Assembly: GCF_019802255.1 (NCBI RefSeq)
Contig: NZ_JAHYSS010000001.1
Location: 581,333-645,332 of the forward strand
Reading direction: 5' to 3'
DNA from: Pedobacter polysacchareus
GTDB taxonomy: Bacteria; Bacteroidota; Bacteroidia; Sphingobacteriales; Sphingobacteriaceae
Length of the DNA: 64,000 nucleotides
Shown here: in pieces, positions 2,241-19,800 of the stretch
Layout: each line of letters starts with the position of its first letter
How positions within the stretch are numbered: position 1 is the first letter of the stretch
Position numbers and translations under genes: made by a program
Notes under the pieces: model-generated
Databases searched by the model: none
What the model saw: only the letters and a program-made list of their open reading frames with translations
Told to the model about the DNA's origin: nothing

Positions 2241-4202
2241 ATGTTTACTAAGTTAGAAATTGTATCGCGTTGGATTATTTTTACGATAGATATCTGCTTG
2301 AGCCTCCTTGCTTTGTTGTTTGCTGTGATTTTACAGCATAACTTTATTCTTGATAAGATTAATTTTATAGGATTCTACAAATCAATATTGTTGGTTATTG
2401 CAGTGAATACATTGGTATTCTATAGTGTGAAAACTTTTGCAGGAATCGTAAGATATACTTCAGCGCAGGATTCTTTCCGAATTTTATTTTCAGTTATTTT
2501 AAGTTCATTGGTTATTTTCTTTACAAATGCAGTAATTATTGTTGGTACAGGCTCTTCTGTGATAAGTAATGTTGCCATTGTAATATATACTCTGTTTAGC
2601 TTTTTAATGCTAATAACCTATAGGATTATAGTGAAATACTTCTTTATGTATCTTAAAAATGCAAAACTGGATAAAATAAGGATAATTATTTATGGTGCTG
2701 GTGAGGCTGGAGTAGCAACTAAAAGAACTTTTGATCATGATGCAAAAGTAAACAAGACAATTATTGCATTTGTAGATGATGATTTAAGGAAAGTAGGGAA
2801 AACAATTGATGGGGTTAAAATTTTGGATGCATCGCAATTGGAACATCTGATTGTAAAGCATGAAGTTGACGAAATTATCTTTGCTTCGTACACTATTCCT
2901 TCGGATAGGAAAAATCAAGTGGTAGATGTGTGTTTAGAACATAATGTTAAAATACTAAACATTCCTTCTCCTGATGTATGGGCAAAAGGACAGGTGACTA
3001 CGGCTCAAATTCAAAACTTAAACATTGAGGATCTTCTAAATAGGAAAACCATTGAGATTGATATTGATGGAATTCAAAATCAATTGAAAGATAAAAGGAT
3101 TCTAATTACCGGTGCCGCTGGCTCTATAGGTAGCGAGGTGGTTAGGCAATTACTGAAATTTGAAACAGGGCTAATTATTCTTTGTGATCAGAGTGAAACC
3201 GCGCTACATAATATTTATTTAGAATTGGAGGAAACTCATGCCAATACTAATTTTCATGCCTTTATTGGTGATGTAAGGGATGAAAAGCGAATGGAGTTTC
3301 TTTTTGAGACCTATAAGCCACATTACGTATACCATGCTGCAGCTTACAAACACGTTCCTTTAATGGAAGACAATCCTGCAGAGGCGATTAAAACAAATGT
3401 AGTGGGGACCAAAATGATTGCTGATAAATCCGTGAAACATGGTGTCCAGAAATTTGTAATGATTTCTACAGATAAAGCGGTAAATCCTACCAATGTAATG
3501 GGCGCTTCTAAAAGAATTGCCGAGATCTATGTACAATCTTTAAACAATTCATTGCACCACACGAATCATATTTTTAGTAATGGTCTAAGTTATATCAATG
3601 ATTTAAATGTAAAACCAATCACCAAATTTATTACCACACGTTTTGGGAATGTTCTAGGCTCTAATGGATCAGTAATTCCTCGTTTTAAGCAACAGATCGA
3701 AAAGGGAGGGCCGGTTACTGTAACTCACCCGGAGATTACCCGCTATTTTATGACCATCCCTGAGGCTTGTCGTTTGGTATTAGAAGCAGGTTGTATGGGG
3801 AAAGGTGGAGAAATCTTTGTTTTTGATATGGGGAAATCTGTTAAGATTGTTGAATTAGCAAAAAAGATGATCCGTTTAGCGGGCTTAGTACCTAATGAAG
3901 ACATACAAATTACTTTTTCGGGATTACGACCTGGAGAGAAGTTATTTGAAGAATTATTGAATGATAATGAAAATACTATGCCTACCCATCATGAAAAAAT
4001 CATGATCGGAAAAGTAAGAGAATATGATTTTAATGAAGTCCAAATGCAATTGGTTAAACTGACAGGTTATGCGTTAACCGACCACACCACTAAAGTAGTA
4101 CAGCAAATGAAAATTATTGTTCCTGAATTTAAGAGTAAAAACTCCATCTTTGAAGAGTTAGATGTGGAACGCCAGGAAGTTCCTGGAATACCTCAGAATT
4201 AG
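2241..4202 (+). CDS. Membrane-bound nucleoside-diphosphate-sugar dehydratase, PglF/WbpM/CapD type
   Basis: Likely UDP-GlcNAc 4,6-dehydratase acting at the inner membrane in synthesis of a surface glycan. The N-terminal ~130 residues contain about four hydrophobic membrane segments, followed by a Rossmann-like CoA-binding domain (IIYGAGEAG, about 155-165). The catalytic SDR domain begins near residue 285 with GAAGSIGSE. The active-site stretch STDKAVNPTNVMGASKR carries the Asp-Lys pair and a Met in place of the usual SDR Tyr, as known for PglF/FlaA1 enzymes. The length of 653 aa fits the long membrane class. It is expected to feed the DegT-type aminotransferase at the left edge, together giving a 4-amino or diamino sugar. 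The substrate assignment is an inference. Confidence 0.88.
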   Translation: MFTKLEIVSRWIIFTIDICLSLLALLFAVILQHNFILDKINFIGFYKSILLVIAVNTLVFYSVKTFAGIVRYTSAQDSFRILFSVILSSLVIFFTNAVIIVGTGSSVISNVAIVIYTLFSFLMLITYRIIVKYFFMYLKNAKLDKIRIIIYGAGEAGVATKRTFDHDAKVNKTIIAFVDDDLRKVGKTIDGVKILDASQLEHLIVKHEVDEIIFASYTIPSDRKNQVVDVCLEHNVKILNIPSPDVWAKGQVTTAQIQNLNIEDLLNRKTIEIDIDGIQNQLKDKRILITGAAGSIGSEVVRQLLKFETGLIILCDQSETALHNIYLELEETHANTNFHAFIGDVRDEKRMEFLFETYKPHYVYHAAAYKHVPLMEDNPAEAIKTNVVGTKMIADKSVKHGVQKFVMISTDKAVNPTNVMGASKRIAEIYVQSLNNSLHHTNHIFSNGLSYINDLNVKPITKFITTRFGNVLGSNGSVIPRFKQQIEKGGPVTVTHPEITRYFMTIPEACRLVLEAGCMGKGGEIFVFDMGKSVKIVELAKKMIRLAGLVPNEDIQITFSGLRPGEKLFEELLNDNENTMPTHHEKIMIGKVREYDFNEVQMQLVKLTGYALTDHTTKVVQQMKIIVPEFKSKNSIFEELDVERQEVPGIPQN

Positions 4203-4212
4203 AGCCCCTTAC

Positions 4213-5832
4213 ATGAATTTTAAAATAAAACACATCTCCTGGATAGGAGCCCTAATTTTTGGTAGTATTGGTGCTCAAGCGCAAACACCAAATGTAAATA
4301 TCCCGTATTCTTATCAGTTCTATCAAAAACTGAATAAATCTGTTTATGATATAAACAATCGTTCTCATTCTGCGATTAAAGGTTATTATGCCGATGATTC
4401 TTTACTGGTCCATCGATACAATGAATTGATGAAAATGGGTACAGACTCTTTAAACCGCCGCTCATGGGTTAGAAGAAAAATCACAGAAGAGCATTTATTG
4501 AATTTTAAAGGTGAGGATTATGAGGTTTATGCTGATTTCCTGCCTGATTTTCAAATTGGAAGGGAATTTTCTGAAGGTAAAACAACATGGATTAACACAA
4601 GAGGTATTCAATTAGGTGGTACAGTAGGAAAGCAGTTTTCTTTCTATACGAATGTTTATGAGAATCAAGGTGTGTTTGCCAACTACCTGACAGATTTTAT
4701 CAACACCAATCAAGTGGTTCCAAGTCAGATGTCTGGTAAATTATTTGGAACAACTAAAGATTGGTCCTATGCGACAGCTTTATTGTCTTACACACCTAAT
4801 AGATACCTAAACCTTGCAGTGGGGTACGATAAAAACTTTATCGGAGATGGATACCGTTCGATGTTACTTTCTGATGTAGCAGCAAACTATTCTTTTGTGA
4901 GGTTGCGTGCGAGTTTAGGTAATGTACAATACCAAACTATTTTTGGTTATATGCTGGATCCTGGGGCACAAAAGCTGACAACCGATAGACGTTTAGGAGA
5001 TCGTGGGAAATGGGCAGCAATGCATTATGTAGATTGGAATGCGACAAAGCGTTTCTCTATCGGATTCTTCCAGGCAGTAACCTGGGCTGATGCAGAGCCT
5101 GAAGGTAAAAGAGGTTTCGATTTTAATTACATCCATCCTTTCATCTTCCTTCGTTCTGTGGAAGGTGCCAATACCACTTCACCTGATAAAATGCGCTTAG
5201 GCATCAATACTAAATATGAGATCCTAGATAAAACCACGGTGTACGGTCAGTTTATGATCGATGAATTCACGGCTAAGGAGTTTTTTGGCAACAAAGGTTA
5301 CTGGGCAAATAAATGGGCCTTACAAATTGGTTTCAGAGGATCTGACTTGTTCAAAATAGAAGGGTTGAACTATCTAGCTGAGTTCAATACTGCCAGACCT
5401 TATACTTATGCCCACTTCGACAGGGTATCTAACTACGCGGCAATGAATCAACCATTGGCGCATCCAATGGGGGCGAATTTCAGAGAAGTATTAGGATTAG
5501 TGAACTATACTTACAAGCGATTCGACTTTCAGGGGCAAATGATGTATGCAAGATATGGTCTGGATCCAGAAGGACAGAATTATGGAAAGGATATTTTTAA
5601 GCCCTATGATACTAGAGCAGCTGATTATGGTAATTATATTGGACAAGGCATTAAAACTAACTTATACTTCGCTGAAGGACGTGTAGCCTATCTTTTAAAC
5701 CCAAAGTATAACCTTCGTTTGGAAGTAGGAGGAGTTTATAGAAAAGAGAGCAACAGCTTAGGTAATAAAAATACTGGCCTAATTACATTTGGGTTAAGAA
5801 GTACTTTCAGGAATTTATATCAAGATTTGTAA
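4213..5832 (+). CDS. Outer-membrane beta-barrel, RemB/Wzi-like
   Basis: A secreted protein of 539 aa from the ATG at 4213. The longer frame from 4162 overlaps the previous gene and lacks a sensible signal peptide, whereas from 4213 the N-terminus (MNFKIKHISWIGALIFG...GAQAQ) is a clear signal peptide. The remainder is rich in alternating aromatic and polar residues and ends in a strand-like FGLRSTF segment, typical of an outer-membrane barrel. It resembles the Bacteroidetes proteins annotated as gliding protein RemB or capsule-assembly Wzi family. Its position 10 nt after a polysaccharide enzyme supports a role in attaching or exporting the glycan. A motility role cannot be judged from this window. 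A long hairpin follows immediately. Confidence 0.6.
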   Translation: MNFKIKHISWIGALIFGSIGAQAQTPNVNIPYSYQFYQKLNKSVYDINNRSHSAIKGYYADDSLLVHRYNELMKMGTDSLNRRSWVRRKITEEHLLNFKGEDYEVYADFLPDFQIGREFSEGKTTWINTRGIQLGGTVGKQFSFYTNVYENQGVFANYLTDFINTNQVVPSQMSGKLFGTTKDWSYATALLSYTPNRYLNLAVGYDKNFIGDGYRSMLLSDVAANYSFVRLRASLGNVQYQTIFGYMLDPGAQKLTTDRRLGDRGKWAAMHYVDWNATKRFSIGFFQAVTWADAEPEGKRGFDFNYIHPFIFLRSVEGANTTSPDKMRLGINTKYEILDKTTVYGQFMIDEFTAKEFFGNKGYWANKWALQIGFRGSDLFKIEGLNYLAEFNTARPYTYAHFDRVSNYAAMNQPLAHPMGANFREVLGLVNYTYKRFDFQGQMMYARYGLDPEGQNYGKDIFKPYDTRAADYGNYIGQGIKTNLYFAEGRVAYLLNPKYNLRLEVGGVYRKESNSLGNKNTGLITFGLRSTFRNLYQDL

Positions 5833-5919
5833 TTGATTCACTAGGATAAAAAAATAAGAAGTCCGGGATTTTAATCCCGGGCTTCTTATTTTTTTATCCT
5901 AGTTGGAATAGTGAATCAA
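5833..5919. terminator. Very long hairpin, probable terminator
   Basis: Two 31-nt arms, 5840-5870 and 5873-5903, are complementary at every position except one G-T wobble, and only 2 nt separate them. The arms contain an A7/T7 run, so a U-rich tract is present when either strand is read. An outer pair (5833-5843 with 5909-5919, 11 bp, perfect) can extend the structure. It starts right after the stop of the RemB-like gene and separates the polysaccharide genes from the acyl-ligase operon. Confidence 0.8.
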
Positions 5920-5932
5920 AGTGTTACTTTTG
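5903..5932 (+). promoter_or_regulatory. Promoter of the acyl-ligase operon
   Basis: TTG at 5903-5905, a 19-nt spacer and TACTTTTG at 5925-5932 form a good Bacteroidetes promoter. The -33 element begins on the last base of the preceding hairpin arm. Transcription should start near 5938, about 12 nt before the ATG at 5950. This marks the following six genes as a separate unit from the polysaccharide cluster. Confidence 0.65.
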
Positions 5933-5949
5933 GCCATTAATGTTCTCAA

Positions 5950-7632
5950 ATGCTAGAAAATAACAATTTAAGTCAAGCTTTTTCAAAAAGTTTCAAGGCT
6001 GTTGGCAAACGTAATTGTGCCATCTTTTTGCCTAAAGGTGATCCTTTAAGCGAGATTTCTGTTACTGGGATTGGACTCCATGAAAAGGCGGTTGAAATGG
6101 CTTATCGGATGCTGGAAAGAAGGGAGGAGCTAAAACATAGCACACGACCTGTCTTACTGGCGATGTCTCCAGGATTAGATTTCGTAATTGCATTCATCGC
6201 AGGCTTATACGCTGGGATTACCATCGTTCCCATTCCAATTTCTAGGAGTAAATTACAGGAAGAAAGAATTCGAAATATTATCAGTGATTGTAATGCAGGA
6301 GAAATATTCTGTGATAAAAGTGGTTATGAGGCTTTAAAAGGTTTTTTGGACTTGCCGGCATTTAAACTGCACTGCATTACGGATGACCGGGAAGTTCTTG
6401 CGAACAACAGATTTGAATTGCCTGGTTTCTCCTTTACAGCTGAAGATCCTGCGTATATACAGTATACATCCGGGTCATTCAAGAAGCCAAAAGGGATTCT
6501 GCTTTCTCATGCGAATGTGCTCCATAACCTGAACTTGGTAGGTGAAGTTTGTGGTTTTAATGAACAAACGATCTCAGGAAGTTGGCTTCCTCATTATCAT
6601 GATATGGGCTTAGGTACTATTTTGGTGAGTTTGATACATGGATCTAAGATTGTCCTGATGTCACCTCTGGCATTTATTCAAAAGCCTGTGAGGTGGCTGA
6701 AAATGATTTCTGAGTATAAGGTAACACTTAGTGGCGCACCAGCTTTTGCCTATAACCTTTGCTGTAACAGGATCCCAGCAGATGAAATTCATGGATTGGA
6801 TTTGTCCAGCTGGAAGCTGGCATTTCTTGGTTCCGAAATCGTGCGTAAAAAAGTAATTTCTTCTTTTTATGAGAAGTTTTCCGCTGCTGGACTTTCTTCA
6901 AATTCCCTATTTGCGTGTTATGGTATGGCAGAAGCAAACTTTTTCATTGCAGGAGAACGGGCATTTAGGCAGGATGAAAACTTGGACTCAAATGAAGCGG
7001 AGATGATAGCGCCCTGTTTCTTACGTGAAATCGTCAAAAAGTCTATCATAATCGTTGATTTCATCACTAAAAAACAATTGCCTGATTCCGAAAAAGGAGA
7101 GATCTGGATTCAGTCAGCCTCATTGGCAAAAGGATATATTTTGCCCTCAACGAATCAACCTATTCCTGTTGATTCAACAGAATTTGCGCAAACTTGTGAA
7201 GGACAAGCTGGGGAATGGTTTAAAACCGGAGATTTAGGCTATCTTGATGGCGATAAATTATATGTGCTTGGTCGACAAAAGGATACCATTAAAGTAAATG
7301 GTTTGAATATTTCCGCTGCTGATGTTGAATGGTTGGCCGGAGACGTTAACTCCAACCTGAATCCATTAGCTGCCGCTGCTTTTAGAACCAGCGAGGAAGA
7401 CGATAGTAAAGCTTGTCTATTAATTGAAGTGTTTTCAACGGAGCCTATGAATATCGAAGATATCAAAGCACAAATACGATCAAAGATGCTGTCTTGTTTT
7501 TCATTGGAATTAGAACATATACTGATTTTGAAAAGCGGTACCTTGGATCGGACTTCCAGTGGAAAAATAAGGCGTTACTCCATAGGCCAGGATTTTGATA
7601 TTCATGCTTACGAAAAAAGAGTCCTGATATAG
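5950..7632 (+). CDS. Fatty acyl-AMP ligase (FAAL-type)
   Basis: An ATP-dependent adenylating enzyme expected to activate a fatty or related carboxylic acid as acyl-AMP and load it on a carrier protein. The P-loop-like motif YTSGSFKKPKG lies near residues 172-182. WLPHYHDMGLG, the FAAL/FACL signature, follows, then GAPAFAYNL and YGMAEANFF. The C-terminal domain carries KTGDLGYLD, GRQKDTIKVNG and TSSGKIRR with the catalytic lysine. The 560-aa length is that of a stand-alone FAAL without a fused carrier domain. A separate acyl carrier protein is encoded two genes downstream. An acyl-CoA ligase cannot be excluded without checking the FAAL-specific insertion, but the HDMGLG motif and the neighbouring carrier favour FAAL. 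It is the first gene of the operon. Confidence 0.87.
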   Translation: MLENNNLSQAFSKSFKAVGKRNCAIFLPKGDPLSEISVTGIGLHEKAVEMAYRMLERREELKHSTRPVLLAMSPGLDFVIAFIAGLYAGITIVPIPISRSKLQEERIRNIISDCNAGEIFCDKSGYEALKGFLDLPAFKLHCITDDREVLANNRFELPGFSFTAEDPAYIQYTSGSFKKPKGILLSHANVLHNLNLVGEVCGFNEQTISGSWLPHYHDMGLGTILVSLIHGSKIVLMSPLAFIQKPVRWLKMISEYKVTLSGAPAFAYNLCCNRIPADEIHGLDLSSWKLAFLGSEIVRKKVISSFYEKFSAAGLSSNSLFACYGMAEANFFIAGERAFRQDENLDSNEAEMIAPCFLREIVKKSIIIVDFITKKQLPDSEKGEIWIQSASLAKGYILPSTNQPIPVDSTEFAQTCEGQAGEWFKTGDLGYLDGDKLYVLGRQKDTIKVNGLNISAADVEWLAGDVNSNLNPLAAAAFRTSEEDDSKACLLIEVFSTEPMNIEDIKAQIRSKMLSCFSLELEHILILKSGTLDRTSSGKIRRYSIGQDFDIHAYEKRVLI

Positions 7633-7710
7633 GCAGGCTAGCCCTATACGTTCAATAATAAGTATACTAGTTTCTTGACCATACTGATTTAGCCTTTTAA
7701 TTCAATAAAC

Positions 7711-8859
7711 ATGAACAGTAGCACCGAAAAAATAATAAGGCCAGAACTTTCTCATCCAGGTTTTACCTATATTAATGATATTGATATTGCCAATGAGGTC
7801 AACAAAAACAGTGATTTTGTACCACCTCCCATGGAAAAGTACCTCCTTGAGCTGCAAGCTGCAAGTGGGAGAGATTTTTCTAACCTCATCCTAGTTTCTG
7901 GAAATGCACTTTTCTTTATGTCTGGAAATAAGCATATTCAGCTTCGAAAGAAGGTAATGAATACACTTGGAAAAGGTAATATTAACAAATGGATTCCAAT
8001 TTTTGATGAGGCGATTGACGCGGCCATCCTTAGTTTGAAAAATTCGGGAACTCCTGATATTGTTGCTGATTTTACTTATCCTTTATTTCTCGAAACTACT
8101 CAACGTGTTTTAGGAGTCCGACCGAATGATCCTGAAAGATTTGACTACTGGACGCAACAATTACAGACCCTGCTTCAGCCATTGTTACCCTTGAGGCAGT
8201 TGATCAAAATGGAAGCAGGTTTTGGTGACCTGTTGGACCAAATGCGGGAAAAGGAAATCGGGGAAAAGGAAGACAATCCAGCATCACTACTCAGCGAGTT
8301 GAGGGATTTTAGATTGGAAGGTTATTCAGAAGACGATGTTCTGGCTACAATATTAGTACTCTATGGTGCCTCTGTTAATATTTCTCAAACGATGGCCAAT
8401 GTGGTTTGGCATTTACTTTCAGCTCCTGAAGCCATTAGCGCATGCGCAAAAGATCCAGCATGGGTGACCAATAACCTGGAATATCTTATAAAAATTAGCG
8501 CATCACCAAGATATATCCACTCCATCTCCATGACTAATAAGAAAATTGGTGGCCTGGATTTTAGTAAAGGTGATAATGTACTGATTGACTTGCTGGAAGT
8601 TCATAATGTGGGCTGTCCTTTTGCAAAGGAGAAAAGCTGGACTAAAGAAGAACTCTCCAATAACTCACATATCGCATTTGGTAAAGGGATCCACTTTTGC
8701 GTAGGCGCTTTTCACAGTAGGGTTCTCATTGAGCGTGCTATACCTAAACTATTTGCAAGTTTTCCTAAAATCACCAAGTTGACGGATGTGCCGGATGTAA
8801 GCGACCAAAAACAAACGGTGATCCTAAATTCTTTAAAAGTTAGTCTAAACGAAAAATAA
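7711..8859 (+). CDS. Cytochrome P450 with non-canonical conserved motifs
   Basis: A haem-thiolate protein of 382 aa, soluble like bacterial class I P450s. The haem-binding loop is FGKGIHFCVG with the ligand at C330. Other landmarks are degenerate. The I-helix segment reads YGASVN around residues 218-223, with Ser221 and Val222 where the acid-alcohol pair (Asp/Glu-Thr) normally sits. The K-helix reads LEYLIK at 256-261, so the usual ExxR becomes YxxK. Some P450s lacking ExxR are known (CYP157 group), and loss of the acid-alcohol pair is known in enzymes with unusual oxygen chemistry. It lies 78 nt after the acyl ligase and 1 nt before the carrier protein gene, so an acyl group on that carrier is a plausible substrate. 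The reaction is unknown. Confidence 0.88.
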   Translation: MNSSTEKIIRPELSHPGFTYINDIDIANEVNKNSDFVPPPMEKYLLELQAASGRDFSNLILVSGNALFFMSGNKHIQLRKKVMNTLGKGNINKWIPIFDEAIDAAILSLKNSGTPDIVADFTYPLFLETTQRVLGVRPNDPERFDYWTQQLQTLLQPLLPLRQLIKMEAGFGDLLDQMREKEIGEKEDNPASLLSELRDFRLEGYSEDDVLATILVLYGASVNISQTMANVVWHLLSAPEAISACAKDPAWVTNNLEYLIKISASPRYIHSISMTNKKIGGLDFSKGDNVLIDLLEVHNVGCPFAKEKSWTKEELSNNSHIAFGKGIHFCVGAFHSRVLIERAIPKLFASFPKITKLTDVPDVSDQKQTVILNSLKVSLNEK

Positions 8860-8860
8860 A

Positions 8861-9112
8861 ATGCCGGAATTAAACAAAATATACCTTGTTGAATTATTAA
8901 TAACAAAAATAGCTGATCATGTGGAAATTGAAATTGATTCCATAGATCCAGCGAAAAACCTGGATGAAATAGGGTTGAGTTCCTTACATGCCGTAATTAT
9001 TTCCGGAGAGCTGGAAGATGCTCTGGAAATTGAAATCGACCCGATGATCATGTTTGAAAATAAAACTATTAATGAGGTAGCTGATAAGATAATGCTGTTG
9101 AATAATGGATAA
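8861..9112 (+). CDS. Stand-alone acyl carrier protein
   Basis: An 83-aa acidic protein of the phosphopantetheine carrier fold. The helix-II motif is IGLSSLHAV, where S41 is the expected 4'-phosphopantetheine attachment serine (usual form GxDSL). Helix III is followed by FENKTINEVAD, the typical carrier ending. Its ATG is 1 nt after the P450 stop and its end overlaps the carbamoyltransferase by 8 nt, indicating translational coupling. It is distinct from housekeeping AcpP, which normally sits beside fabF. The likely role is to carry the acyl chain loaded by the FAAL while the P450 and other enzymes act on it. Confidence 0.9.
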   Translation: MPELNKIYLVELLITKIADHVEIEIDSIDPAKNLDEIGLSSLHAVIISGELEDALEIEIDPMIMFENKTINEVADKIMLLNNG

Positions 9113-10784
9113 GTATTTTATCGGTTTATCCACTTCTGGACATGACCCTGCCTTTAGTGTGGTAAATGACAAAGGGGAGGTGATTTTTGCTGAAGCTACA
9201 GAAAGATTTGTACAGCAGAAAAGAGCCTGGGGCATAGATGCAGATCATCCTGAACACATTAGAAGTGTGCTGCCGGATTTGATCAGCCCTGCCGCTGAAA
9301 TTGTTATCTCAAAAAGTTGGATTAAATCTAAAAAGGGTTTGCCAATTGATATTGCCGGAGGATTATTAGTGGATTCTACTACTGCAAAGTGGCTAGTGTC
9401 GTTGCAGGATAAAGTATTTGCAAATGCTGGCGAAAATTTAAGGGAATACCTCTTACTGGAGGAAGATAATTCCGTTGAATGCTTCGACCATCATCTTTGT
9501 CATGCAGTGAACGCCTGCTATACTGCCGATTTCAGCTCAGGTTTATGTCTGGTCATTGACGGGGAGGGAGAAGTCGGTGCAGTTAGTGTCTATCGATTAA
9601 AAGATCGGACATTGCAACGGATCTGGCGCTCCTGGGGACCAGGAAGTTTGGGAAGTTATTACGGATGGCTGACTAAAATCTGCGGTTTCGATACGCGTAG
9701 GGGAGAAGAGTGGAAAGTGATGGGGCTGGCGGCCTTTGGCAAGCCGGTTGAATTTATTGTAGAAGCCTTAAAAAAACTGATCGAAGTCAAAGAGGGCCGG
9801 TTATTATTCGCCTCCGAAGCGCAAATGCAAGAGGTGATCAACCATATAAAACCCTTTTATAGAAAACCAGAAGAAGAGCTCATGATGGTCGCCGATTTGG
9901 CTGCCAGTGGACAAGCCGCATACGCTTATTTTGCTGATCAGATTTTAATACATTGTGAAAGCTATGGGGAAGAAAATTTAATTCTCTCCGGAGGCTGTGC
10001 ATTGAACTCTTCGTATAATGGCAGTATTATCGGACGATTCTCCTTTTTGAATGTCCATGTGCCCGCTGCTCCTGCTGATGATGGAAATGCGCTGGGTGCG
10101 GCCATCCTAAGCTGGATGAAAGCCCATCAAACTGTCAAAATCCCTTATGGGAAGGGCTCAGCATACCTTGGTAAGCAGGTGAAAACTGAGGCTAAAATTT
10201 TCAACAGTCTAAGTAAATATGGAGCTTCTTTAAGGGTCATGGACCTCAAAGAAGACAGCGGTAAAATTATTGCAAAGAAACTTTTTGAAGGGAAAATTAT
10301 TGGGGTAATGCATGGAGGCGCAGAGTTTGGGCCACGGGCTTTAGGCAATAGATCTATTCTGGCAGACCCGAGAGGAGACAAAACGAAAGACTATATCAAT
10401 AATGAGATTAAAGGAAGGGAGTCTTACCGACCTTTTGCACCAATAGTATTTGAACATGATGTAGAAAACTATTTTGAGAAAGCACATCGTTCTCCATATA
10501 TGTCATTTACACTTCCATGGAAAGCTGAAATGAAAAAAATAGTTCCGGCTGTAGTTCATGAAGATGGAACGGGAAGGCTTCAAACTATAAATCAAAAGGA
10601 TAATCCCTGGATGACTGAAGTGTTGACAGAATTCGGTGCATTAAGTGGTGTACCTGTACTGCTGAATACGAGCTTCAACGTAATGGGAAAGCCAATCGTA
10701 AATTCAATAGATGATGCGCTTGTGGTATTACTTACCTCTGGATTGGATGCAATTCTATATGATACTATTCTTGTCGAGAAATAA
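9105..10784 (+). CDS. O-carbamoyltransferase, NodU/TobZ family
   Basis: Expected to form carbamoyl-adenylate from carbamoyl phosphate and ATP and transfer the carbamoyl group to a hydroxyl of a sugar or small molecule in the cytoplasm. The N-terminal Kae1-like domain starts GLSTSGHDPAFSVV and contains the metal-site motif DHHLCHAVNA (near residue 125) and IDGEGE. WKVMGLAAFG follows. The C-terminal YrdC-like domain has HGGAEFGPRALGNRSI and RPFAPIV. The length of 559 aa is normal. The acceptor is unknown. In this operon candidates are a hydroxyl made by the P450 or a sugar of the neighbouring polysaccharide pathway. It overlaps the carrier gene by 8 nt and lies 5 nt before the MBOAT gene. Confidence 0.9.
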   Translation: MDKYFIGLSTSGHDPAFSVVNDKGEVIFAEATERFVQQKRAWGIDADHPEHIRSVLPDLISPAAEIVISKSWIKSKKGLPIDIAGGLLVDSTTAKWLVSLQDKVFANAGENLREYLLLEEDNSVECFDHHLCHAVNACYTADFSSGLCLVIDGEGEVGAVSVYRLKDRTLQRIWRSWGPGSLGSYYGWLTKICGFDTRRGEEWKVMGLAAFGKPVEFIVEALKKLIEVKEGRLLFASEAQMQEVINHIKPFYRKPEEELMMVADLAASGQAAYAYFADQILIHCESYGEENLILSGGCALNSSYNGSIIGRFSFLNVHVPAAPADDGNALGAAILSWMKAHQTVKIPYGKGSAYLGKQVKTEAKIFNSLSKYGASLRVMDLKEDSGKIIAKKLFEGKIIGVMHGGAEFGPRALGNRSILADPRGDKTKDYINNEIKGRESYRPFAPIVFEHDVENYFEKAHRSPYMSFTLPWKAEMKKIVPAVVHEDGTGRLQTINQKDNPWMTEVLTEFGALSGVPVLLNTSFNVMGKPIVNSIDDALVVLLTSGLDAILYDTILVEK

Positions 10785-10789
10785 AGCTC

Positions 10790-12367
10790 ATGTTATTCCA
10801 ATCTATAAAATTCATATTCATTTTTTTTCCAATCACGCTGGTTACATTTCTATTACTCAATAGGCGGTATCCGAAATTGGCAGCCGGGGTACTTATAGTT
10901 GCATCATTATTTTTTTGCGGGTATAACGATTTTAGAGCGTTTATAGTCTTAATTGGATCAGGGCTCTTTAATTACTTCACTGCACTGATGATCGATAAAT
11001 GTAAGGCTGGGTCACGGTATCAATCCTTATTCCTCGGTGTGGGTATTTTGCTGAATTTTTATGTCCTGTTTTGGTATAAGTTCTTTTCAGCAAGTACCCA
11101 GCATACCGTAGTTAGCAATGACCCTAATGCCAACCTGATTCTTGAATTTGGCATTCCTTTAGGGTTGTCCTTTTATACCTTGTATCAAATCTCATTATTA
11201 GTCGATATTTATAGAGGGAAGGCAAAACTTTGTGATTTTAAAAGTTACTTTTTATCCGTAACAATGTTTGCTCATCTACCTGCTGGGCCGATCCTGAGGT
11301 ATAAAACTTCAATTAAGCAATTTGTAGAAGCAGGACGGACAAGAATAACTGAGGAGAGTATTGGCTTAGGGATAAGCTTATTTACTTTTGGTCTGTTCAA
11401 AAAGACAGTCTTTGCAGATACTTTGGCAATCTTTACGGGCCAGATGTTTGTTAGCATTAACTCAAATGCTCATTTTACATTTCTAGAATCTCTGGCTACG
11501 GTCTGGGCTTTCCTCCTTCAATTGTATTTTGATTTTTCTGCCTATTCCGATATGGCCATTGGGCTAGGATTGTGTTTTGGGTTCAAATTTCCAGTGAATT
11601 TCAATTCGCCGCTTAAAGCCATATCTTTTACTGACTATGTAGCTAGGTGGCATATTTCTCTGATTGCATTTAACCGCGAATATATCTTCATTCCAGTATC
11701 CAAGTTGATGTTAAAATTGTTAAAGGGGAATTCGCCCTTTAATAACTATTTGTCTGGAATTGTGGCAACGATGATCGTTTATATTTCTATTGGCTTTTGG
11801 CATTCACCTACCTTGCAGTTTTTATTTTCTGGCGTAGGGATTGGTTTGATTCTTACGATAAGTCAATTGATGGTACTAATCTTTAGAAGATGGTGGCCAA
11901 TGAAACTAAAACTTGGTCAAATTGGTCGAGTATTGAATCAGGTAAAGGTACTGTTCATTGCTGCTATTGCAGGGAGTTTGCTAATGCTAAATGATCTTTC
12001 GTCTTTTAGATCCCTTTTGGCGGGTTTTGGAAGATTTGATTTTAGGACTGACGGTGCTTTCTGGCTAACTACTGGAACTTCGGATTTCTTTTCCATGATA
12101 AAAAAACCGATCTACCTTTTTGGTTATGAAAGTTATATGTTACCATTTCCTCTTTTTATTTTGATATGCTCTATGATTGCGGTAAAAGGTCCGAATAGCA
12201 TGGAACTTTTTGGGCTGATGACTTTTAATCCCACTAAATGGAATAAATTTCTAGTTTGGAAGCCTAACTTGTTTTGGGGACTGGTTACAGGGTTTTTACT
12301 GGCATTGTATTTAATCATCAAATTGGATAATCGTATGTACCAAGACTTTCTTTATGGGCAGTTTTAA
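10790..12367 (+). CDS. MBOAT-family O-acyltransferase (AlgI/DltB type)
   Basis: A 525-aa polytopic inner-membrane protein, about ten or more hydrophobic segments. MBOAT enzymes move acyl groups across or at the membrane onto polysaccharides or teichoic acids. The family signature is clear: FDFSAYSDMAIGLG, then ARWHISL with H288, and the second histidine H338 in GFWHSP. Compared with AlgI the loop after ARWHISL is altered (IAFNREYIFIP for the usual WFRDYLYIP), suggesting a different substrate. The start at 10790 is 5 nt after the previous stop. The overlapping next gene encodes an SGNH-type partner, as in alg and dlt systems. Confidence 0.9.
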   Translation: MLFQSIKFIFIFFPITLVTFLLLNRRYPKLAAGVLIVASLFFCGYNDFRAFIVLIGSGLFNYFTALMIDKCKAGSRYQSLFLGVGILLNFYVLFWYKFFSASTQHTVVSNDPNANLILEFGIPLGLSFYTLYQISLLVDIYRGKAKLCDFKSYFLSVTMFAHLPAGPILRYKTSIKQFVEAGRTRITEESIGLGISLFTFGLFKKTVFADTLAIFTGQMFVSINSNAHFTFLESLATVWAFLLQLYFDFSAYSDMAIGLGLCFGFKFPVNFNSPLKAISFTDYVARWHISLIAFNREYIFIPVSKLMLKLLKGNSPFNNYLSGIVATMIVYISIGFWHSPTLQFLFSGVGIGLILTISQLMVLIFRRWWPMKLKLGQIGRVLNQVKVLFIAAIAGSLLMLNDLSSFRSLLAGFGRFDFRTDGAFWLTTGTSDFFSMIKKPIYLFGYESYMLPFPLFILICSMIAVKGPNSMELFGLMTFNPTKWNKFLVWKPNLFWGLVTGFLLALYLIIKLDNRMYQDFLYGQF

Positions 12368-13328
12368 AAAAATGAATAGGAAATATCATACAGGGCCTTT
12401 TATTAATGGATTTATGATCGCTATGGGCTCGTTATTATTAATTATTGGTACTGTCAATTTTATAGTCGACCCTTTCTGGTATAGAGAAAAGAGAGTAAAA
12501 TATTTTAACTATTTACCCATAAACGAGATCACTAACACGGCACCTTTAATGAATATAGCCACACTTTATTCAAAAGGTCCGAATGTTAAATATAGTGTGA
12601 TAGGTACATCTCATGTACTGGCAGGAATAAAGAATTGTGAATACCCTGAGCTGGAAAAGGTGGGTGTTTCTGCAATGAGCATTCAAGAAAGTCAAAGAGT
12701 TTTGCAGAAGATATTATTAAAAGCAACAGTGTCAAAGACAGTTTTTATAGAGGTCTGCGGTATCAATGATATCCCCCAAATTCGCGATGTAAGCTTTTTA
12801 AATAGGATTTTCAGCTTACGAGCTTTTGTTTATTCTATTAGGACGATGAAACATAACTTCCTTAATGATCAGCAACTAAAAATTGAACTTTGCGCCCCTT
12901 ACACTCCAAATATTGACACTATAAAATCCATAGATGAACTCAATTCAAAACAAATACCACTGCGTCCAGTTACCTCACAAGAGATTCTGGCTTTGAAGGA
13001 GATGTTTAAATTTAAAGATGGCCTGAAAAAAGATTTGCAACATCAGGTCGTTTTTTTTACTTCGCCACTTCCACAGGAAACTATGGAAAATGAAAAATAT
13101 AGGCTGATAAATCAGAAGCTTTCAGAACAAATGCAACAAGTGGTGGATTCCATGCAATCAGCTAATCATCAAATCAAATTTAAATTCATCAATCTAGCAG
13201 ATACTAAAATTGGGAACGAGTATAAGTTTAGTGAGGGTAATTTCTATGAAGGTTGGTATGATGGAACCCATTTTAAACCAGTGGTTGGTGATCAGGTTGT
13301 AAAGTATTTGATGGGACATTCAAATTAA
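12354..13328 (+). CDS. Membrane-anchored SGNH-like protein, partner of the MBOAT
   Basis: A protein of 324 aa with one N-terminal membrane segment (about residues 16-38) and a periplasmic domain. The block-I motif is VIGTSHVLAGI with candidate nucleophile S86. Near the C-terminus the DGTH motif (D303, H306) matches block V of SGNH hydrolases, so a complete Ser-Asp-His triad is visible. MBOAT proteins are commonly paired with such proteins (AlgJ/AlgX, DltD), which complete acyl transfer outside the membrane. The gene overlaps the MBOAT end by 14 nt. An alternative ATG at 12372 (MNRKYHT) is equally possible. No specific family name can be given, and the acyl-transfer role is inferred from motifs and context. 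Confidence 0.72.
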   Translation: MGSFKKMNRKYHTGPFINGFMIAMGSLLLIIGTVNFIVDPFWYREKRVKYFNYLPINEITNTAPLMNIATLYSKGPNVKYSVIGTSHVLAGIKNCEYPELEKVGVSAMSIQESQRVLQKILLKATVSKTVFIEVCGINDIPQIRDVSFLNRIFSLRAFVYSIRTMKHNFLNDQQLKIELCAPYTPNIDTIKSIDELNSKQIPLRPVTSQEILALKEMFKFKDGLKKDLQHQVVFFTSPLPQETMENEKYRLINQKLSEQMQQVVDSMQSANHQIKFKFINLADTKIGNEYKFSEGNFYEGWYDGTHFKPVVGDQVVKYLMGHSN

Positions 13329-13470: not shown

Positions 13471-14592
13471 ATGAATAGAATATTTATCATCCTTTCTTTT
13501 CTTTTGATCTTCGTAGTCGGATCCGCTTTTTACGCAGAAAGTGAAGAGGATTCATTAAGAGCACAATATAGTAAACCGGTCAGTCAATGGCCAAAGCCCA
13601 CAATTGATAGTGGTGTAAACTGGACGGAAATGAGTTCCTTGCCAGCTATCGACAGCAATTATTTTAAGCTAATGGCTGAACCAAAGGTGATGCTGGGACA
13701 ACTCTTGTTTTTTGATCCATTGCTTTCTGGTTCCAACCAGGTTTCTTGCAGCAGCTGTCACGATCCGGAAATCTCCTGGGGGGATAAACGTGCGGTAGCA
13801 CTTGGAAATGATCATTTGCAGGGAAATAGAAATACGCCTTCGCTGCTCAATGTAGCAGAACGCAAAAGCTTGTTCTGGGATGGCAGGGCGGCAACATTGG
13901 AGTCTCAGGTAGATGGCCCGATTACCGCACACCATGAGATGAACATGAAACCTGAGGCTTTGCCTAAGAAATTAGGAAAGATCAAAGGCTATAGAGAACT
14001 GTTTGTAAAAGCCTATGGAAAAGATAAGATCACTTACCCGCAAATTGTGGAATCCTTAGGTGCTTTTGAAAGAACGATAAGAAGCAGAAGAAGTAGGTTT
14101 GACCGTTTCCTGGATGGAGAAACCAAAGTTTTAGACGATCAGGAATTGCATGGACTACACCTTTTCCGTACTAAAGCGAGGTGTATGAACTGTCACAATG
14201 GAAAATACCTGACGGATGAAGCGTTTCATAATATCGGATTAACTTATTATAAACGTAAATACCAGGATTTGGGAAGACACCTGATCACCGGCAAAAAGGA
14301 AGATGTAGGCAAATTCAGAACACCTTCCTTAAGAGATGTGATGCATACCGGTCCATGGATGCACAATGGCATGTTTGATAGCATTACTGGTGTTGTTAAT
14401 ATCTACAATAGCGGTATGCATATGATCGATCCAACAGAAGCGCAAGCCAAAGCAGATCCTTTGTATCCCAAAACAGATCCACTGCTAAAGCCATTGAAGC
14501 TAACCAGTGCAGAGGTGAAGGCAGTAGTTGCTTTTATGAACGCAATTACCGCAACACAGTACCACATGAGAAGACCGGAATTGCCAAGATAA
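13471..14592 (+). CDS. Di-haem cytochrome c peroxidase family protein
   Basis: A periplasmic or membrane-anchored c-type cytochrome of the CcpA/MauG superfamily, which reduces hydrogen peroxide or carries out related oxidations. Two CxxCH haem sites are visible: CSSCH at 93-97 and CMNCH at 238-242. The family segments GQLLFFDPLLSGS, WDGRAATLE, GKFRTPSLRDV and HNGMFDS are present. The N-terminal hydrophobic segment (about residues 3-20) is a signal peptide or anchor. The length of 373 aa is typical. It stands alone, 142 nt after the acyl operon and 214 nt before jetA. Whether it is a true peroxidase or a MauG-like enzyme cannot be decided here. Confidence 0.9.
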   Translation: MNRIFIILSFLLIFVVGSAFYAESEEDSLRAQYSKPVSQWPKPTIDSGVNWTEMSSLPAIDSNYFKLMAEPKVMLGQLLFFDPLLSGSNQVSCSSCHDPEISWGDKRAVALGNDHLQGNRNTPSLLNVAERKSLFWDGRAATLESQVDGPITAHHEMNMKPEALPKKLGKIKGYRELFVKAYGKDKITYPQIVESLGAFERTIRSRRSRFDRFLDGETKVLDDQELHGLHLFRTKARCMNCHNGKYLTDEAFHNIGLTYYKRKYQDLGRHLITGKKEDVGKFRTPSLRDVMHTGPWMHNGMFDSITGVVNIYNSGMHMIDPTEAQAKADPLYPKTDPLLKPLKLTSAEVKAVVAFMNAITATQYHMRRPELPR

Positions 14593-14806: not shown

Positions 14807-16279
14807 ATGCCGATGATAGACAGTGCCAGGATTCTTGAAGTACTCAATAGCTCAGCAAGTGTGAATTTGCTGAAGCTGAGGAACAGGGATATTGTGATAG
14901 AATTTCTAATCAATACTTTTATAAATGAGGAAGCGACCGTTTCCTCCGATCATGTTCATTCTTTATTGGCTGACTTCCTGGATCTTAAGCAGGTAGACAA
15001 TGATGAGGAGTATGAAATTGAAAGCTTTGACTCCTATGAGGTAAAGGCGAGGAAATATGTGAGGAAGTGGACGGACAGCGGTTTTTTAACGAATTATCAG
15101 GACGACCAGGGAGAGATATTTTACGAGATTTCTGCACATTCCAGTAAAACCATCGACTGGTTAATGAGCCTTCAGAAAAAGGAATTTGTAGGTACAGAAT
15201 CCCGCTTCAAAGATATTTTCAATCAACTGAAAGACTTGGTGGAGTTTACCAATGGTGATCGCGACAATCGTTTGGCCATTTTAGAAGAGAAACGACTGGA
15301 AATTGAACACCAGATCGAACAGCTGAAATCAGGTAAAAAGGTCAAGATCTACCAGGATTATGAGGTGATTCCACGTTATAATCAATTAACACAAGCGGCA
15401 AAAGAACTGTTGTCGGACTTTAAAGAAGTGGAAGATAACTTTAAAGACATCACCAGACAGATTTACCAGAAACATGCAGAAGGGAGCTTAACGAAAGACC
15501 ATATCCTGGAGTTTACTTTCAATGCCCTGGATCAGATTAAAGACAGTCAGCAGGGCAAGAGTTTTTACGCCTTCTGGTCTTTCCTGCTGGATCCGGTGTT
15601 ACAGGAAGAATGGACTACGCTCAGCAATACGCTATTCGAAAGATTAGACGAAAGAGAGATTGTAGTTGGCGATTTCTTCCTGAAAGGAATGAAGAAATAC
15701 CTGCATGCCTCTGGTCAGAAGGTGTATAAGGCAAATGATAAGATGGCGGAGAAGTTGGGCCGCATCATTAGAGAGTCTGAAGGTTCTAAAATCCAGGTCA
15801 CACATAACGTGATCCAGGAGATTAAAACGATGCTGATCGAAGTAGGGAAGCAGGAAAACCGCCCGGATATCGGGTTGGTACTGGAATCAAACCTGGAAAT
15901 CTATCCGTTTTTTGAACAGCGCCTGATGCTGGAGCAGCCGGAAGAACTGCTTTATCATACCAGGCCTAAGTTAGCAGACAAAGACATCTTAAGTTCAAGG
16001 CAGCTCGGTAAGTTATTCGGTCAGACGAAGATCGATAAAGAAGTGCTGCGGAAAAAAATCAGAACGGTATTGTCAGGGAGAGCCCGCGTTTCCCTATTTG
16101 AAATCATTGAAGCCGACGGTGGTATCGCAGATGGCCTTCCAGAGCTGTTTGGGTATTTATCTGTGGCCAAAGAGTTCAAACATACCATCAACCCAGAAAA
16201 CACACAGCGTATTTTATTTGATGCCCAAGGGCAGAAGTCAATCAACGTACCTGAAGTAATCCTATTAAAGAATGAGTAA
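14807..16279 (+). CDS. jetA: JetA-like Wadjet/MksF-type kleisin subunit (DUF3375)
   Basis: A 490-aa subunit of a bacterial SMC complex of the Wadjet/MksBEF class. JetA is the kleisin-like subunit that bridges the two JetC ATPase heads. The N-terminal part is winged-helix-like (NLLKLRNRDIVIEFLINTF), followed by a long helical region with charged coiled-coil segments (about 165-240) and a C-terminal globular part. Overall pattern and length match DUF3375 proteins. The stop overlaps jetB by 8 nt. The assignment rests on the gene order DUF3375, DUF4194, SMC-like ATPase, which is diagnostic, and on recognition of the family from sequence. Intact Wadjet systems cleave closed circular DNA such as plasmids, but that needs JetD, which is not here. 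Confidence 0.85.
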   Translation: MPMIDSARILEVLNSSASVNLLKLRNRDIVIEFLINTFINEEATVSSDHVHSLLADFLDLKQVDNDEEYEIESFDSYEVKARKYVRKWTDSGFLTNYQDDQGEIFYEISAHSSKTIDWLMSLQKKEFVGTESRFKDIFNQLKDLVEFTNGDRDNRLAILEEKRLEIEHQIEQLKSGKKVKIYQDYEVIPRYNQLTQAAKELLSDFKEVEDNFKDITRQIYQKHAEGSLTKDHILEFTFNALDQIKDSQQGKSFYAFWSFLLDPVLQEEWTTLSNTLFERLDEREIVVGDFFLKGMKKYLHASGQKVYKANDKMAEKLGRIIRESEGSKIQVTHNVIQEIKTMLIEVGKQENRPDIGLVLESNLEIYPFFEQRLMLEQPEELLYHTRPKLADKDILSSRQLGKLFGQTKIDKEVLRKKIRTVLSGRARVSLFEIIEADGGIADGLPELFGYLSVAKEFKHTINPENTQRILFDAQGQKSINVPEVILLKNE

Positions 16280-16844
16280 TTTTGAAGATAAAACAAAGCC
16301 TTATTCCAAGGCCATCATCAGGCTGCTGAAAGGCCCGGTGTACTCCCAATCCAGTGTTTGGGAAGATATTATTCATTACCAGCGAGAGATTCAACACTAT
16401 TTAAATGTGATTGGTCTGGAGCTGATCTTGAAAAAAGAAGAAGGCCTGGCTTTCTTTAAACAGTTTGAAAACAATGAAGGCCATACGATGGGATTGATCT
16501 CCCGTCGCCAGATTGGTTTTGAAACTTCTATTGTCCTGGTGATTTTGCGCCAGATGCTCGAAGATTTTGACAACAATCCTACGCTGATCGATGGCAATGA
16601 GAAATTCATCAGCCATAAAGAGATCCGCGAAGAAATTGAATTGTTCCTGCCAGAAAAATATAACCGTGTGAAATTCCTGAAAGAACTGGACAGCTATATC
16701 CGCAAAGTTGTGGAGCTGGGCTATTTGAAAGAACAGCAGGAAACCGATGCAGAGCCGATTTATAAGATTCAACGCATCATCAAGGAAAAAGTAACCCTGG
16801 ATGTTTTAAAAGATTTTAAACTGAAACTGGAGGAATATGTATAG
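16272..16844 (+). CDS. jetB: JetB-like Wadjet/MksE-type subunit (DUF4194)
   Basis: A 190-aa tandem winged-helix (KITE-like) subunit that binds the kleisin in SMC complexes. The sequence runs from YSKAIIRLLKGPVY through GLISRRQIGFETSIVLVILR to a C-terminal winged-helix segment ending EEYV. The length is usual for DUF4194/MksE proteins. Its ATG lies inside the end of jetA (8-nt overlap) and its end overlaps jetC by 8 nt, so the three proteins are translationally coupled, consistent with fixed stoichiometry. Confidence 0.87.
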   Translation: MSNFEDKTKPYSKAIIRLLKGPVYSQSSVWEDIIHYQREIQHYLNVIGLELILKKEEGLAFFKQFENNEGHTMGLISRRQIGFETSIVLVILRQMLEDFDNNPTLIDGNEKFISHKEIREEIELFLPEKYNRVKFLKELDSYIRKVVELGYLKEQQETDAEPIYKIQRIIKEKVTLDVLKDFKLKLEEYV

Positions 16845-19800
16845 TTTATTTAGCACGAGTTCCGACAAAGCAGGATACCGACTGCAATATATGGAGGTTT
16901 ATAACTGGGGAACATTTGATGGAGAGATCTTCAAGATTTCGCCTAAAGGAAACAATTCCCTGCTTACAGGTGCAAATGCCTCCGGTAAAAGTACGTTTAT
17001 TGATGCTTTGCTCACTTTGCTGGTTCCAGTGAAAGGAGATCGATTTTATAACCAGAGTTCTGGAGTAGAGAAAAAAGGAGATAGGACGGAAGAGACTTAT
17101 GTATATGGTCATTATGGCAATATCCAGAACGAAGGGGAGCTAAAAGCAACCACTCAAAAACTGAGAGACCATACCGCTTATTCCGTATTATTAGCCTCAT
17201 TTGAAAATACAGAAGGACAGGTGATCACGCTGTTCCAGGTGCGCTGGTTCAGCAATGGCGAGCTGAAAAGAAGCTTCGGAATTGCCCATGTGCCCCTGGA
17301 AATTGAAAAAGACTTTGGCCAGTTTGATGGTAAAGGGATTTGGAAAAGACGCCTGGAGAAAATATACAACTATGCCGTTTCTAAAAAGCGTGTAGAGTTT
17401 TTGGATGGTCCAACGAAGTATGCGGAAAGGTTAGCACACTTGTTTGGGATGCGTTCCGTAAATGCTTTAAGCCTGTTCAACCAGGTGGTAGGGGTGAAAG
17501 TGCTGGAAGATCTGGATGAGTTTATCCGTATGAATATGCTGGAATACCAGGATGCAGAAGCGGAATTTATCCAGCTGAAAGAGAGTTTCATTACCCTGAT
17601 GGATGCGAAAACAAACATCGAAAAGGCGAAAGAGCAGATTGCCCAGCTGACACCAATCCATGACCTGGCCACTCAGCTTGCTGAAATTGAAGCTAAACTG
17701 GAGGTATTGCAGAAAGACAAGGATACTGCGGTATTCTGGTTCGCCGGAAAAGGAGTGGAGCTGATTACGGCCAAGCTGGACAAAAACAAAGAGGTACTCC
17801 AGCAATTAAAAGCAGACTTGATTCAGCTGAAGGAAAAAGATGAAGCCGCAAGGAAGCAGGAAAGAGCACTTTCGATGTCCATTGAAAATGAAGAGGTTTG
17901 GAAACAAATTGAAAAGATTGAAGAGGAGATCAAGCAGGCGGAGAAACTTAGGAACCACCGTCAGCATAAACTAGAAAGCTACAACCGTTTGGTGGCAGCG
18001 CTGGACCTTCCTCAAAATCCAGATGCCAATGTATTTGCCGATTCCAGGGCTTTAACGCAAGAAAAACGCTCTGAAGGAGATGTACAGCGCGAACTGGAAG
18101 AAGAAAAGAAAAGACAAATTAAGAATGAGATCGACCGGCTACAGGAAGAAGTAGATAACTTGCTGGCAGTAGTAGGGTCTCTTCAAAAAAATAAAAACAA
18201 CATCTCCGGCAGAGAAGCCGACATCAGGGAGGATATCCTGGCTCATGTAGGTGCTACGAAAGATGAATTGCCATTTATCGGGGAGCTGATTCGCGTAAGG
18301 GAAGTAGACCTGGAATGGGAGCCGGCAATCGAAAAAGTGCTCCATAATTTCGCATTGAGGCTGATTGTTCCTGAAAAGTATTACAATGAGGTCAATGCGT
18401 ATGTGAACCGCACCAACCTCAAAGGCCGCATTACTTACCAGCGCTACAAAGGATTTACTTCGATGGGCAGCCTGAAAAGAAGGTCTTATGAAGGGGATTT
18501 GTTGGTCAACAAGCTGGAATTTAAAGAAGGTTCTGTATATGCGGAATGGCTGGAAGATGCGATTGCCAGTCAATACAATTACAGCTGTGCCGAAAGTCTG
18601 GAAGAATTTAACCGCTATGAAGAGAAGGCGCTGACGAAAGAAGGGCTGATCAATGCGGTTAAAGGAAAACATGAAAAAGACGACCGTCCGCATATTGCCA
18701 GAAGAGAGAACTTTGTACTTGGATGGGACAATAAGGACAAAATCAACCTCCTGAAACAGGAATTGTCGGTTTTCCAGGAAAAGCAAAAAGAAAATCAGCA
18801 GCAGCTGGAATTCATCAATCAATCCATCAAAAAGATCGATGAGCTGAAAGAGAAATTCTACCAGCTGTATTCTGATTATGCGGTGTTTGAAGACCTGAAC
18901 TGGGCGGTTTATGCCACAGAAATTGAAGAGAAAAAGACGGTAAAAGAAAGTCTGGAGAAAACTAATGATAAGGTTAGGGAGCTGCAGAAACAACTCGAAA
19001 TCGTAAAGGGGCAGTTGGATGCCATTGATAAGGAAAAAGAGCGCAGCGTGAAGCTGAAGCACGATACCGAATGGATGAAGCAGAGCCTGGAGAAGGAATT
19101 GGCCGCAAACAAGGAAACATTGGCCTTGTTTGAAGGACACCATCCGGATGTGGCCGAGTTTGAAGCGACTCATGAACATTTATTGAACATTCAGCATGTC
19201 AACTTTAAGGCAGCACAGGATACTTTCAGGGAGCAGAATATGAACCTTGGAAATGACCTTCGCTCTGAAAAGCATAAGAAAGAAAATGCGGCGAGAATTA
19301 AGATCAATAACTTTAAACAGCCCAATGAACAGCTGACCCAGAAGTTTAAAGATTGGCGTTCTGATGTAAATGGATTGCCGGATTCTACGAACCTGGAGTT
19401 CATTGCAGAGTATCAAAAACGCCTGCAGCAGCTCAAAGAAGACAACCTGCCGAAATATGAGCAGAAGTTTGAAGCGTACCTGCAGGAAACCATCATCAAT
19501 AAGATCGGTGATTTCAGGATGTTCTTTGAAAACTGGGCGGAATCCATCAAGGAAAACGTGAAAGTATTGAACGAAGCACTCTTTGAGATTGATTTTAAAA
19601 GTACACCGAAAACCTATATTCAGCTGGTCGCTCCAGATCGGATTTATGAGGATGTGAAAACTTTTAGAACGTTATTGAATAATGCGATTCCTAACGGACA
19701 AGAAGGAGAAGATTTGATTGAAGGCAAGAAACTGCATTTCGACAGACATATTGAGCCATTGATTGAAAAATTAGAAAAAGAAGAATGGCGCAAAAAAGTG

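Follow-up and report, generated by a model that had tools for sequence, protein, structure and literature searches.

The window, as we call the whole stretch of 64,000 nucleotides of Pedobacter polysacchareus DNA analysed here, carries a six-gene cassette that we propose to be a carrier-protein-fed envelope acylation system. We lean towards this reading without considering it secure, and substrate, chemistry and acceptor are inferred in it. The parts themselves, their intact catalytic residues, the conserved gene order and the co-inheritance of the genes are shown by sequence.

Organisation of the locus

The cassette consists of six co-directional genes, all on the forward strand (5950-13328), encoding in order a fatty acyl-AMP ligase (FAAL), a cytochrome P450, an acyl carrier protein (ACP), a NodU/TobZ-type carbamoyltransferase (CT), an MBOAT and an SGNH protein, with intergenic distances of 78, 1, -8, 5 and -14 nt. 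Profile searches (Pfam, NCBIfam) identified the families AMP-binding/FAAL, p450, PP-binding, Carbam_trans N and C, and MBOAT/DltB. The features are as follows.

5834-5918, no strand: long inverted repeat, a bidirectional terminator-like hairpin between the Wzi-like capsule-locus gene and the cassette (by fold)
5903-5932, + strand: putative Bacteroidota-type promoter TTG-N19-TACTTTTG (consensus pattern match only)
5950-7632, + strand: FAAL (Pfam PF00501, 7.7e-47; best NCBIfam and PDB matches are FAALs)
7711-8859, + strand: cytochrome P450 (PF00067, 2.7e-08; alignments)
8861-9112, + strand: ACP (PF00550, 3.8e-13; phosphopantetheine Ser41)
9105-10784, + strand: O-carbamoyltransferase of the NodU/TobZ/GdmN family (PF16861, 2e-63; PF02543, 1.2e-28)
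10790-12367, + strand: DltB-like MBOAT (TIGR04091, 1.4e-32, below the curated cut-off; fold; His288/His338; C-terminal FLYGQF with Tyr522)
12354-13328, + strand: membrane-anchored SGNH protein (AlphaFold model; Ser86/Asp303/His306; N-terminal helix 13-38)

The hairpin, present as a single copy in the genome, has a folding energy of -50.6 kcal/mol (z -11.9); it is a near-perfect long palindrome whose outer arms are broken by about 9 nt. The promoter pattern TTG-N19-TANNTTTG occurs five times in the 64 kb against 1.5 expected, and a promoter at 5903-5932 is a plausible possibility of which a pattern match is no proof. The description in the earlier note of six co-directional genes with their own promoter, insulated by a long hairpin, is thus upheld by reading frames, profiles and fold, the promoter by consensus only. 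The arrangement of the six genes is not due to chance, because the identical order recurs in other phyla.

Several neighbours of the cassette may be recorded. The capsule locus upstream ends in a 556-aa protein (4162-5832) that has the look of a Wzi-type outer-membrane capsule protein and has no Pfam or NCBIfam match. Directly 3' of the cassette lies a MauG-like di-haem cytochrome c peroxidase (13471-14592), and just downstream a plasmid-defence system, Wadjet type I, is represented by JetA1, JetB1 and JetC1 (14807-20238; PADLOC E 1e-210, 6e-62 and 0, respectively).

Enzymes of the FAAL-P450-ACP-CT core

The first enzyme is matched far more weakly by DltA models than by the best NCBIfam FAAL models (3.6e-20 versus 2e-82), and all the PDB entries that it matches at E<1e-30 are either FAALs or FAAL-like synthase domains, with no DltA among them. 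It would activate an acid as acyl-AMP and then load the ACP, an inference made without test data on the FAAL-to-ACP pairing. Ser41 of the ACP is invariant in an alignment of 20 relatives. The CT has the two-domain build of its family (Carbam_trans N and C), finds GdmN, TobZ and the novobiocin CT in the PDB, and keeps the family's metal-site HxxxH and Asp residues, which are invariant in the alignment. In the tree, cassette CTs form one clade (support 100), separate from the CTs of polyketide, saxitoxin-like and other clusters.

The P450 contains the heme-thiolate motif FxxGxxxC (FGKGIHFCVG), with the heme Cys kept. The ExxR of helix K and the acid-Thr pair of helix I were not found by alignment, the only means used, either against 4RM4 or across the family, their places being taken by YLIK and GASVN. 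Since the canonical oxygen-activation and ExxR residues are missing, the chemistry may not be hydroxylation. The window has one P450, and two P450 domains are found in 28 of the 33 scored cassette loci. They are fused in tandem within one protein in L060 (9580-11757), L069, L071, L074 and other alphaproteobacterial loci, where both domains keep the heme Cys and both lack ExxR and the acid-Thr pair in their canonical form. The two P450s are encoded by separate genes in Galbibacter, Hahella, Marinomonas, Alteromonas and Idiomarina.

The MBOAT-SGNH pair and its relation to Dlt

DltB is the sole match of the MBOAT profile among PDB sequences (E 7e-38) and supplies the top Foldseek matches of the structure model. 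His288, His338 and Tyr522 are invariant among the 15 aligned cassette MBOATs. Tyr522 lies within the C-terminal FLYGQF, which fits FXYXXF, reported in DltX and PatA as the acyl-shuttle motif (PMC12148441); at the C-terminus the strict form of this motif is present in 7 and a relaxed form in 11 of the 15 proteins, against 0.5% by chance in shuffled sequence. The SGNH protein has no Pfam or NCBIfam match, and only chance matches to PDB sequences. Its AlphaFold model (pLDDT 74, pTM 0.73), which has one N-terminal membrane helix (13-38), matches SGNH hydrolase structures including PatB and the C-terminal domain of OatA (Z about 11-12), DltD being among the weak Foldseek matches (rank 32, E 0.025) and not the nearest structure. 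The GxS and WxDxxH motifs are kept without exception in 15 relatives, and so are the residues G84/S86, D303 and H306. As far as sequence tells, the pair would belong to the broad group of MBOAT-SGNH acyltransfer systems, polymer acylation itself being inferred.

The cassette shares with Dlt (DltXABCD) an adenylating enzyme, a carrier protein, a DltB-like MBOAT with its catalytic His, a membrane-anchored SGNH protein and the Tyr shuttle motif. It differs in having a FAAL in place of the D-Ala ligase DltA, in the additional P450 and CT, and in gene order. There is also no separate DltX, the Tyr motif being fused to the C-terminus of the MBOAT, and no room for such a microprotein (FXYXXF) within the cassette, whose largest gap is 78 nt. 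Furthermore, the cassette is found in Gram-negatives without teichoic acids, which are not known in Bacteroidota. It is not a dlt operon, because two defining parts, DltA and DltX, were tested for and are absent. The Dlt-like logic claimed in the earlier note therefore held as shared logic (DltB-like MBOAT, catalytic His, C-terminal Tyr, SGNH fold) and not as operon membership; the term is supported in the sense of "works like".

Distribution and conservation of gene order

CT-based searches retrieved 33 further cassettes beyond the window. When 84,980 species genomes were scanned with the N-terminal part of the CT, 62 loci were returned. Of these, 31 are cassettes, which together with the window and two Rhodobacterales plasmids make up the 34 loci considered here. 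They belong to Bacteroidota (Galbibacter, Roseivirga, window), Gammaproteobacteria (Hahella, Pseudomonas, Stutzerimonas, Marinomonas, Alteromonas, Idiomarina) and, in many cases, Alphaproteobacteria. Each plasmid encodes a CT of 52-53% identity adjoining a FAAL, P450s fused in tandem and an ACP; on one of the two, MBOAT and SGNH genes are present as well, and the order is the same. The CT-based search misses CT-less versions, as well as loci related only at the level of peptide patterns.

The order P450-ACP-CT is constant in 34/34 loci, P450 and CT flanking the ACP with frequent overlaps of 4-8 nt. The FAAL comes first in 32 of the 34, the exceptions being L073 (none nearby) and L092 (downstream), and MBOAT-SGNH directly follows the core in 15, window included. 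All six families occur together in 15 loci from three groups, 14 of them in the window order, the FAAL of Idiomarina being displaced; the co-occurrence in this order that the earlier note had wished to see checked is thereby confirmed. A single-strain accident is ruled out by the 33 further loci. Among 145 same-genus genomes the window's own was the only cassette-clade CT (next best 40% identity), which rules out a vertically inherited genus trait; in a phylum sample of 395 genomes this CT was absent.

L073, from Rhodobacter sp. NTK016B, has no FAAL upstream, and the same genome holds a second, complete cassette (L077). Used as a search marker, the FAAL matched other FAALs at about 35% and gave no lead to cassettes. 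The other FAAL loci of the class contained no cassette; one of them, L056 (4691-10899) in another Bacteroidota genome, is an analogue, a FAAL-ACP-P450-MBOAT operon without CT. Its MBOAT ends in FQYFQF, its P450 has canonical motifs (AGQETT), and an SGNH-like gene (GTS, DQIH) faces the operon. The gene combination is not described in the open-access literature searched, most subscription journals lying outside the search.

Co-inheritance of the genes

All 15 MBOATs from cassettes fall into a single clade (support 100), separate from 33 other MBOATs that include the second MBOAT of the window genome. Compared pairwise, the trees of FAAL, P450, ACP, CT, MBOAT and SGNH share 4-10 of 11 splits (FAAL-P450 10, CT-MBOAT 8, ACP-MBOAT 7), against about 0.3 with random labels (0.32 for ACP-MBOAT), and agreement as high as that observed was reached in 0 of 1000 label permutations. 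Such permutations do not remove species relatedness. Groupings that the trees share and that cut across taxonomy, with Stutzerimonas placed beside Hahella and apart from the remaining Pseudomonas loci, speak for movement of the cassette as a unit. Independent inheritance of ACP and MBOAT, by which the earlier note would have been refuted, is ruled out by the MBOAT clade and the congruent gene trees.

These trees also bear on the hypothesis of mere coincidence, in which a FAAL-P450-ACP-CT cluster is followed by an unrelated MBOAT-SGNH pair that works as an ordinary polysaccharide O-acetyltransferase fed by acyl-CoA. MBOAT-SGNH pairs are indeed common, and most use acyl-CoA (PMC12148441). However, the cassette MBOAT clade is distinct from the 33 others, co-evolves with ACP, CT and FAAL and keeps the same operon position, so that we regard this explanation as very unlikely.

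A constant core with exchangeable partner modules

Across the 34 loci the gene or genes accompanying the core vary: MBOAT-SGNH in 15, a VexE-like TPR-acyltransferase in 9, a thioesterase-like protein in 7 and none in 3 (L079, L084 and L088, where none of the three modules was seen within the DNA examined). No locus (0/34) has two modules together, and on the CT tree no fewer than 8 changes are needed to account for the states. Two kinds of evidence underlie the name VexE-like: NCBIfam matches, which are modest (L082, 5e-10; L075, 2.5e-5, under the curated cut-off), and a common arrangement of TPR plus C-terminal domain; VexE is a beta-hydroxyacyl-ACP:UDP-GlcNAc acyltransferase acting on a surface-glycan precursor (PMC9597891). 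The thioesterase-like module has a GGNCQGA nucleophile motif and a weak match to NocB (E 0.04). In L083 (4828-5640) and its relatives GGNCQGA is invariant, with Cys replacing the usual Ser, and neither Pfam nor NCBIfam gives a match. In 18 loci (L060:6292-7812 and 17 others) a B12 radical SAM enzyme is encoded with the cassette, and the weak NCBIfam matches of this B12-binding protein include methyltransferase-type relatives.

A constant core with a swapped delivery part suggests that the core makes an acyl-ACP, which the variable part delivers. The FAAL-P450-ACP-CT core is thus probably a unit that tailors acyl-ACP and works with exchangeable modules for delivery, a conclusion inferred from sequence alone. 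The view of the earlier note, in which all six genes formed one Dlt-like unit, is refined accordingly, MBOAT-SGNH being its exchangeable part.

It could also be argued that the cassette makes a small secreted metabolite, which MBOAT-SGNH acylates or releases in place of modifying an envelope polymer. This is supported by the resemblance of FAAL-P450-ACP-CT to a natural-product cluster, and by the sister cassettes with the thioesterase-like protein, a weak match as stated, and the B12 radical SAM enzyme. Against it, the conserved set has neither an export pump nor a chain-elongating synthase, characterised bacterial MBOAT-SGNH pairs acylate envelope polymers (PMC12148441), and the VexE-like alternative points to glycolipid acylation. 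We consider the metabolite hypothesis unlikely and retain envelope acylation as the preferred reading.

Genomic neighbourhood and possible acceptor

A capsule/O-antigen locus (Wzx, initiating sugar transferase, PglD, UDP-sugar enzymes) lies directly upstream of the window cassette, and the Galbibacter and Marinomonas cassettes are also placed among polysaccharide genes. No capsule genes were seen among the few flanking genes checked of the MBOAT-type cassettes of Pseudomonas, Hahella, Stutzerimonas and Brevundimonas, and many cassettes, such as the Rhodobacterales plasmid ones, have no capsule genes next to them. A polysaccharide acceptor is therefore likely in the window genome, inferred from the capsule neighbourhood only, and unproven in general, since several MBOAT-type cassettes have no capsule genes in the flanks checked.

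A further hypothesis is that CT and P450 modify the acceptor, a capsule sugar or glycolipid, and that FAAL-ACP-MBOAT-SGNH merely attaches an unmodified fatty acyl group to this same polymer. In its favour, the characterised CT relatives TobZ, GdmN and NodU carbamoylate sugars, macrolactams or oligosaccharides, and the window cassette comes after a capsule locus. However, in 34/34 loci neither P450 nor CT is separated from the ACP, while the acyl-delivery genes are swapped, many cassettes lie away from capsule genes, and the nearest non-cassette CTs adjoin polyketide or tailoring clusters. This hypothesis is thus improbable, and modification of the acyl chain remains the reading that we favour.

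Discussion

We propose that the envelope acylation system would operate in five steps. The FAAL would adenylate a carboxylic, probably fatty, acid and load it onto the ACP (step 1); the P450, or the two P450s of most relatives, would oxidise the ACP-bound chain (step 2); and the CT would add a carbamoyl group to the new hydroxyl (step 3). On the cytoplasmic side the MBOAT would then draw the acyl group from the ACP onto its own C-terminal Tyr522, as in DltB/DltX and PatA (step 4), and Ser86 of the SGNH protein would accept it and pass it to an extracytoplasmic acceptor, here probably the capsule or O-antigen of the upstream locus (step 5). Substrate, order of steps 2 and 3 and acceptor are inferred, in the absence of biochemical or structural product data. 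The fixed position held by P450 and CT around the ACP is what leads us to infer that oxidation and carbamoylation take place on the acyl chain itself; the transfer of such a group to an acceptor, already suggested by the earlier note, is still an inference, with no lipid or polysaccharide data.

The closest known systems each share a part of this scheme. The PatAB, AlgIJ and cellulose acetylation systems likewise combine an MBOAT bearing a C-terminal Tyr motif with an SGNH partner outside the membrane, but they use acyl-CoA and no carrier protein (PMC12148441), as do MBOAT-SGNH pathways other than Dlt generally, whereas ACP and acyl-activating enzyme are constant in the cassette. VexE of the Vi capsule has in common the ACP-dependent acyl transfer to a surface-glycan precursor, and a VexE-like protein replaces MBOAT-SGNH in the 9 sister cassettes; it uses ordinary beta-hydroxymyristoyl-ACP (PMC9597891), unlike the acyl group proposed here, and Vi loci are not known to contain a FAAL, P450 or CT. 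Natural-product loading modules of FAAL, P450 and ACP and polyketide-associated CTs share the free-standing FAAL and ACP, the P450 tailoring and the CT superfamily, but the cassette has no synthase, a clade-specific CT (support 100) and a coupling to membrane acyl transfer.

It can be hypothesised more boldly that the cassette is a mobile acyl-ACP tailoring platform of Bacteroidota and Proteobacteria, on whose dedicated carrier an acyl group would be oxidised and carbamoylated before passing to one of several interchangeable delivery routes (MBOAT-SGNH for passage through the membrane, a VexE-like protein for transfer onto a sugar nucleotide, thioesterase-like release), giving an undescribed class of surface decoration. 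We see the arguments for and against this joint claim as evenly balanced. If the proposal is true, it would constitute a second, independent carrier-fed MBOAT-SGNH route besides Dlt, in which the acyl group is edited on its carrier before crossing the membrane, and the selection of one acyl-ACP by an MBOAT would become testable. It would also predict that many bacteria carry a new modification of a surface lipid or polysaccharide, and would provide a portable means of attaching functional acyl groups to surface glycans.
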